A stretch of DNA of 64,000 nucleotides from an uncultured Methanobrevibacter sp. Lineage in GTDB: Archaea > Methanobacteriota > Methanobacteria > Methanobacteriales > Methanobacteriaceae. Within the stretch, counting starts at the first letter, position 1; each line of letters starts with the position of its first letter. The stretch is taken from contig NZ_CACWVY010000013.1 of the NCBI RefSeq assembly GCF_902764455.1, positions 1 through 64,000 of the forward strand, in the 5' to 3' direction. The notes below the pieces were generated by a model that was not told the origin of the DNA, searched no databases, and worked only from the letters and a program-made list of their open reading frames with translations. This document shows, piece by piece, positions 20,637 to 21,392 of the stretch. A program made the position numbers and the translations under genes.

Positions 20637-20885
20637 CTATAATCCGCATTTGAATTTGAATCTGTATTCTTGGTTAACAATTTCCATTCCGATGAATGAA
20701 CCTTTTAATATGTCTGCAACTTTTTGCAAGTCTTCAGCAGTTATAGCTTTACCGTTTGCCAATGGTGAGAAAAAGGTAATCTCATCATCAGTTATTAGGT
20801 AGTTTAAAAGTTTGGTGTTTTCTTTTTGGTATTTTTCGACAATTGCTAAGATTTCTTCTTCAACATTTTTATCCAATTTTGCCAT
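20637..20885 (-). CDS. Hypothetical small protein next to the omega-RNA element
   Basis: I do not recognise this 82-residue soluble protein. It has an N-terminal helix (about 5-22), an acidic middle, and a beta-rich end (GMEIVNQEYRFKFKCGL). An AAGGTGAT ribosome site supports the ATG. The IS605-type right end lies only ~16 nt upstream of the start codon, so the ribosome site and start would form the guide segment of the element's omega RNA, and a transcript from the element would run into this gene. Confidence 0.55.
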   Translation of the reverse strand: MAKLDKNVEEEILAIVEKYQKENTKLLNYLITDDEITFFSPLANGKAITAEDLQKVADILKGSFIGMEIVNQEYRFKFKCGL

Positions 20886-20900
20886 AATATCACCTTTAAT

Positions 20901-21020
20901 CTTGAACTACCTCAACTTGTAGAAGTTGAGGATTCTTACTTCACGGGCTGTATACTCTAATGAGTATAGAATTACCGTGCTATCCCCCTCGTTGCGAAGG
21001 TTCAGGCAATTTTATACGTG
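20901..21020 (-). ncRNA. Omega-RNA-like (reRNA) scaffold of an orphan TnpB element
   Basis: On the minus strand the right end folds as a TnpB guide scaffold: GCACGG pairs with CCGTG (around 20941-20980) and encloses a TATACTC/GAGTATA hairpin, then AAGTAAGAAT leads to the terminal CCTCAACTT/AAGTTGAGG hairpin and a TAGTTCAAG tail. The guide would be the flanking ~16-20 nt (20900 down to about 20882), which covers the ribosome site and start codon of the 82-residue gene. No tnpB is in the window, so a nuclease would have to act in trans. Expression is unproven. Confidence 0.7.
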
Positions 21021-21205
21021 TTAATGTTTACTTTTTTATCGTTGAAAAAAAATTTTTATTAACCCTTTGTCATTGCCATTTATTAGTTTTATATTAAGAC
21101 TATTTAAATTCATCAGAGAGCATTTGATAACTAATCTCCATTTGTGCAATTCATCCATGACTTATAGAAGTCATGGTATTCTCGCATTATTTAGATAATT
21201 AAATT
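20901..21205 (-). mobile_element. IS200/IS605-type remnant (MITE-like), no transposase or TnpB gene
   Basis: Each end carries a 22-nt hairpin: left-end hairpin at 21155-21176 and right-end hairpin at 20910-20931, both with 9-bp perfect arms and the same GTAGA/ATAGA-type loop. The ends are not inverted repeats of each other, as expected for the IS200/IS605 family. The right end has the typical TnpB omega-RNA layout ending in GGTAGTTCAAG. TTTAA tetranucleotide-type candidates for the target/TAM side lie at 21199-21203 and 21215-21219 (minus strand). The interior is only ~130 nt of A/T-rich DNA with no ORF longer than about 15 codons. The outer boundary on the left-end side is uncertain by ~20 nt. 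Confidence 0.75.
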
Positions 21206-21392
21206 ATATCCTATTTAAAGTTTTACTTACCATTTGGAAACCAGTCAATATGAGATTAGATGAAAGTGAAAATTATCATTCAAAAAAAAAATAGTCGTTT
21301 AAATTATTAAATTAACATGAAATAACTGATGAGAAAACAATTAGACTAATAAATAACAGACAATAAAATAAAGGAAAGAGTATCCTAAAAAT
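21206..21392. other. Gene-free A/T-rich spacer
   Basis: This spacer lies between the IS605 remnant and the DUF998 gene. I see no ORF, RNA gene or clear repeat in it. A short A-rich run near 21283 and AT-rich sequence toward 21390 may include the terminator of the DUF998 gene. Confidence 0.4.

Follow-up and report, generated by a model that had tools for sequence, protein, structure and literature searches.

A transposase-free IS200/IS605-type element with an omega-RNA scaffold ahead of a Methanobrevibacter gene

The window, a 64,000 nucleotide stretch of contig NZ_CACWVY010000013.1 from an uncultured Methanobrevibacter sp. (GCF_902764455.1), contains a 293 bp IS200/IS605-type element without tnpA or tnpB. 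It lies on the minus strand, ahead of a gene encoding an 82-residue protein that has no Pfam or NCBIfam match. From 5' to 3' the element consists of a left-end hairpin, a TATA box, a leader stem, an omega-RNA scaffold, and a right end finishing in ...GTTCAA (Table 1).

Table 1. Features of the element and of its insertion site, in window coordinates
Feature	Position	Strand	Basis or remark
Whole non-autonomous IS200/IS605-type element (PATE), 293 bp	20902..21194	-	5' end 21194, 3' end 20902
TATA box TTTAAATA native to the 82-aa gene, upstream of the PATE after insertion	21212..21219	-	same spacing in uninterrupted orthologs
Target motif ATTAT, left end	21195..21199	-	family consensus TTTAT
Left-end hairpin CCATGACTTCTATAAGTCATGG	21155..21176	-	sequence; conserved in copies
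Internal archaeal TATA box TTTAAATA	21101..21108	-	exact in 32/38 PATE copies
Conserved block AATAAATGGCAATGA	21070..21084	-	roughly start-site spacing from internal promoter
PATE leader domain, enclosing a U/A-rich hairpin	21005..21077	-	covariation, folds
Omega-RNA scaffold: pseudoknot UGAAC/GUUCA, H1, H2 with apical stem, H3	20902..21004	-	folds, covariation, model R1
Right-end hairpin CCTCAACTTCTACAAGTTGAGG (H3)	20910..20931	-	conserved in PATE and tnpB elements
Guide GATTAAAGGTGATATT, first 16 nt of flank, with ribosome site; ATG next	20886..20901	-	sequence
82-aa gene, downstream of the PATE	20637..20885	-	conserved in Methanobrevibacter

The boundaries were fixed using copies in the same genome, full-length relatives, and uninterrupted orthologs of the 82-aa gene. 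A first-pass annotation, made from the sequence of the window, had placed an element between 20885 and 21205; the element is real and its two terminal hairpins had been positioned exactly, but the limits are those in Table 1. The earlier view that it holds no ORF and neither tnpA nor tnpB is correct. No credible protein gene is present inside it, only chance ORFs of 40 to 45 aa, and at 293 bp with no ORF above 45 aa it is too short for a transposase gene. Its subterminal palindromes resemble those of IS605-type relatives, and it has inserted 3' of a short motif without target duplication. It is therefore a palindrome-associated transposable element (PATE), a kind of element that is already known. 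The motif was expected to be of the TTTAA type. Instead, TTTAT is found at 20 of 23 tnpB elements and 32 of 42 PATEs, with ATTAT at the window site, where this variant may be cut poorly.

A comparison was made of 34 orthologous loci of the 82-aa gene, all from Methanobrevibacter. None of the 34 has a PATE at the insertion point seen in the window, thus the insertion there is lineage-specific. When the window flanks are joined (...TTTAAATAGGATATAATTTAATTAT followed directly by GATTAAAGGTGATATTATG), they align without gaps to the ortholog at locus L062, with 59 of 76 bases identical, and keep the spacing of TATA box, ribosome site, and start codon found in most orthologs. The insertion was therefore clean, without target duplication, and the uninterrupted orthologs supply the empty site that had been anticipated in other strains. 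About 17 nt separate the native TATA box from the insertion point downstream of it, and a further 16 nt lie between that point and the start codon. Judged by the usual archaeal spacing, transcription of the 82-aa gene would begin at the insertion point, in which case the PATE becomes the 5' leader of the gene. As the first-pass annotation had claimed, the flank sequence places the predicted guide on the ribosome site and start codon; its length of 16 nt is taken by analogy with ISDra2 (PMC8612924). Two other orthologous loci from Methanobrevibacter, L056 and L057, appear almost identical to each other and have a different tnpB element (L056:1317-2938), with terminal hairpins of its own, just upstream of the TATA box of the 82-aa gene.

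The 3' part of the element folds better than shuffled sequences (z = -4.2). The guide RNA-like fold reported earlier is thus real, and compensatory changes support it, although it does not end in 'GGTAGTTCAAG' as proposed; the conserved end is GTTCAA and the final G of 'GGTAGTTCAAG' is the first base of the guide (20901). A covariance model check had been suggested. Rfam has no match to the window PATE even at E<=10 and none to a tnpB-bearing relative, which points to a gap in Rfam. The purpose-built model R1 scores the window PATE at 135.8 bits, with the window copy itself in the training set. The scaffold lies at the right end, takes its guide from the 3' flank, and is homologous to the scaffold that overlaps tnpB in a full-length element of genome G004, as is the case for TnpB omega RNAs.

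Among 37 copies without tnpB, 94.4% of cells are paired and 11 pairs have changed on both sides. Covariation in these copies is 0.145 compared with 0.114 in shuffled alignments (0/500), while slid partners give 0.068 or less. With tnpB elements included it is 0.301 compared with 0.127. The omega-RNA stems therefore form a conserved structure with support from covariation. G-U cells are far more numerous than A-C cells in H1 and H2 (71 to 16 over the three stems), a strand asymmetry that is only suggestive because of a near-constant U-G pair in H1. Matches to the omega-RNA model are present in 52 of 139 genomes of the family and in 4 of 17 genera, tnpB-linked copies included. A degenerate omega-RNA-like scaffold of 35.7 bits, without a right end, was also seen on contig 26 of the window genome (32408-32515; L282:1409-1541). 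The gene whose start codon follows it by about 25 nt, in the same orientation, appears by eye to be Spt5/NusG-like.

DNA matches to the PATE or its ends were identified in 48 of 67 genomes of the genus. The copies fall into two length classes, of about 256 to 306 bp without tnpB and about 1.37 to 1.9 kb with tnpB. The full-length tnpB relatives that had been looked for do exist and share the left end, TTTAT motif, scaffold, and right end with the PATE, bearing out the assignment of the ends to IS200/IS605 and of the scaffold to omega RNA. One of these, in G004 (C1:2307893-2309308), is 1416 bp and encodes a 407-aa TnpB with the Pfam domains Cas12f1-like_TNB and OrfB_IS605 and an NCBIfam guided_TnpB match. 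In genome G036 an element with both tnpA and tnpB has a left end similar to that of the PATE.

The genome of the window itself is assembled into 85 contigs with a total of 2.75 Mb, at 98% completeness. A search for further copies of the ends, as had been suggested, found nearly complete copies on contigs 22, 9, and 4, a left end only on contig 23, and on contig 20 a right end that follows the decayed 3' end of tnpB. Several of these copies are decayed. No intact TnpB or TnpA was found in this assembly. The TnpB remnants in this incomplete assembly are decayed pieces and a 31-residue C-terminus that is cut off by the end of contig 46 (L109/L031). A weak omega-RNA match (33 bits) comes after this C-terminus, and it is possible that an intact gene was left unassembled there.

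TnpB relatives are present in 43 of the 67 genomes of the genus and Y1 TnpA scores above the cut-off in only 9. Most elements are therefore without a transposase in their own genome, and little current movement of PATEs is to be expected. TnpB is found in 40 of 48 genomes that have ends of the element family and in 3 of 19 that do not, although the two are not independent, since the ends include those of tnpB elements.

The absence of TnpA and TnpB from the assembly and the decay of several copies within the same genome are what would be seen if the PATE were dead, its omega RNA a residue of a tnpB element, and its conservation a product of recent spread and of ends that TnpA needs, the end hairpins being required by the transposase. 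However, H1 and H2 lie outside the terminal hairpins and are about as conserved as the right end. Along the PATE, conservation is 0.92 for the right end, 0.88 for the omega-RNA stems, 0.82 for the left end, 0.79 for the TATA zone, and 0.70 for the middle. H1 and H2 also covary among copies that lack tnpB. A tree of 75 scaffolds groups 27 from tnpB elements in a single supported clade (96/92) and leaves the PATEs outside it, although this tree is built from few columns and does not show the PATEs as a single clade. A TATA box and leader domain are common to the PATEs and are not seen in the G004 tnpB element. A dead remnant is an unlikely account. L278 and L280 were suggested by the tree as closer tnpB parents of the PATEs, but were rejected because their scaffolds are clearly different.

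We instead favour, as the probable explanation although by no means a secure one, a non-autonomous, guide-RNA-only transposon that is kept by TnpB acting in trans. The lack of an intact TnpB or TnpA in the assembly, the ATTAT motif, and the rarity of TnpA in the genus weigh against it. Recombination with tnpB elements could also refresh the omega RNAs of PATEs and so mimic selection, and the conserved right-end hairpin is needed by TnpA as well.

The PATEs appear to have a promoter of their own, with TTTAAATA at element positions 87 to 94 in 32 of 38 copies. At start-site distance after it is a conserved TAATAAATGACAATGA block, and this spacing suggests that transcription from the internal promoter would start at the AATAAATGGCAATGA block. 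The leader domain is closed by the pairing of GGCAAT (21077-21072) with ATTGCC (21010-21005) and abuts the scaffold directly. This stem covaries to GACAAT/ATTGTC, the changing pair being AU in 23 and GC in 8 of 33 copies. Its covariation is 0.227 compared with 0.134 (0/500) in an alignment-based count, yet two of five whole-structure measures are not above shuffles, so the support comes mainly from the one pair. No counterpart of the leader was visible in the G004 tnpB element, which was compared in full. Ahead of the omega RNA, in the sense direction, PATEs carry a run of T, usually 5 or 6 long and in the window 8 (21045-21052, minus strand). This run is paired with one of A and could be a terminator or part of a stem.

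The PATEs are strongly biased in position. Using ORFs of at least 60 aa and treating both flanks equally, a sense start codon is present within 60 nt of the right end for 25 of 42 PATEs, compared with a divergent one at the left end for 0 of 40 (p = 4e-10), a count that rests on mechanically called ORFs and on phylogenetically dependent copies taken as best matches. When the second members of orthologous pairs are dropped the values are 22 of 39 and 0 of 35. For tnpB elements they are 4 of 29 sense and 7 of 22 divergent, different from the PATEs (p = 2e-4). For TTTAT sites in intergenic stretches of the window the value is 0.23 on either side. Placement in sense just ahead of start codons appears to be new in PATEs. 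The downstream genes are genuine, with Pfam families assigned to 18 of 20 ORFs tested, many of them housekeeping; the genes that follow PATEs include those for a formyltransferase, a ketol-acid reductoisomerase, a histone, a purB-type lyase, and a tRNA synthetase. The same downstream gene family follows PATE-family right ends in different genomes in four cases (L086/L159, L128/L130, L094/L288, and L085/L096), which are either old shared insertions or repeated hits.

This strong sense bias before housekeeping start codons, together with the internal TATA box and the gene families shared by four pairs of genomes, would fit PATEs that have been domesticated as mobile promoters or RNA switches, with the omega-RNA structure kept for the control of mRNA. 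TnpB might, for instance, cut the fused mRNA as it does in processing its own. Against this, 0 of 34 orthologous loci have an insertion at the window site, the left-end hairpin is still conserved although a leader has no need of it, and tolerance of sense insertions could by itself yield the bias. Domestication is an improbable explanation, slightly more so than that of a dead element.

Bacterial TldR proteins repress genes with the help of TnpB-type guides, and their guide RNAs resemble that of the PATE in lying over gene-control sequence (PMC13418256). Since the guide in the window covers the ribosome site and start codon, the first-pass annotation had raised the prospect of a nuclease-dead TnpB silencing the 82-aa gene, and another locus might also be the target. 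Unlike the TldR systems, however, the window genome has no TldR protein and no second target. Its incomplete assembly holds TnpB fragments only, with neither an intact nor a nuclease-dead homolog. The occupied site has no motif beside the guide target, and no other combination of motif and guide match, allowing up to 3 mismatches, is found in the genome. Repression of this type is very improbable. The companion proposal, in which the empty site is cut by a TnpB encoded elsewhere, is plausible as regards the family, although a visible TnpB is missing from the window genome.

The PATE RNA may resemble the stand-alone omega RNAs reported for IscB, which are guide RNA loci without an adjoining nuclease gene. 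It differs from these in being of the TnpB type and in being carried on a mobile element with both of its ends. With tnpB elements of IS200/IS605 such as ISDra2 (PMC8612924) it has in common a right end that encodes the guide RNA, a guide that is the 3' flank, and a motif at the left end; unlike ISDra2, the PATE lacks tnpA and tnpB, has a TTTAT family motif, and has a leader in the place of tnpB. PATEs of Haloquadratum (PMC3119063) and Halanaerobium (PMC7290912) are, like that of the window, short and transposase-free, with IS605-type subterminal palindromes and no target duplication, and the one in Halanaerobium keeps the 3' end of tnpB with the right end (PMC7290912). The Methanobrevibacter copies differ from them in having a covarying omega RNA, TATA box, leader domain, and position as sense 5' leaders, none of which was seen in the searched passages of the two reports. 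With promoter, leader, and omega RNA all retained, and with the bias to leaders, this is a variant of PATE that is undescribed in the literature searched, the coverage of which was incomplete. No PATE bearing an omega RNA was found in that incomplete search and an earlier description is possible.

The RNA used by TnpB is a right-end RNA with its last ~16 nt supplied by the flank; TnpB cuts the donor site beside the motif after this site has been resealed, and the element could in this way be regained from a sister copy (PMC8612924, PMC11870625). On the favoured explanation, a Methanobrevibacter-centred lineage of PATEs, made up of left end, promoter, structured leader, omega RNA, and right end, would be moved in trans by the TnpA of relatives. 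The guide RNA would let TnpB, also in trans, cut the donor site once resealed, and the PATE would then be restored from the sister copy. The window copy appears to have landed in sense where transcription of the 82-aa gene starts, and omega RNA and mRNA would then be made as one molecule, either from the promoter of the gene or from the TATA box of the PATE. Its guide would be drawn from the ribosome site and start of the gene, which in an empty allele would also be the target. Sense insertion at leaders may be favoured since the gene would still be expressed and the guide RNA made. In the assembled host genome this copy is probably dormant, given the lack of an intact TnpB or TnpA in the assembly, its ATTAT motif, and the absence of a second target.

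With no protein gene but an apparent promoter and a complete guide RNA, and placed, like many relatives across the genus, just before a gene start, the PATE of this gut methanogen may be a genetic parasite on borrowed enzymes. More tentatively, and with less confidence than in retention by TnpB, it is possible that there is a lineage of guide-RNA-only transposons that carry a promoter and omega RNA between IS605 ends, borrow TnpA and TnpB, and persist in sense within host 5' leaders, where the guide would be made from host promoters and would in turn protect the insertion. If this is true, retention driven by TnpB would be a public good that protein-free elements steal, and the persistence in PATEs of more than the two ends would be explained. 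Another question, prompted by the preference for sense insertion at leaders, is whether mobile guide RNAs reshape the expression of essential archaeal genes, those of methanogenesis included.
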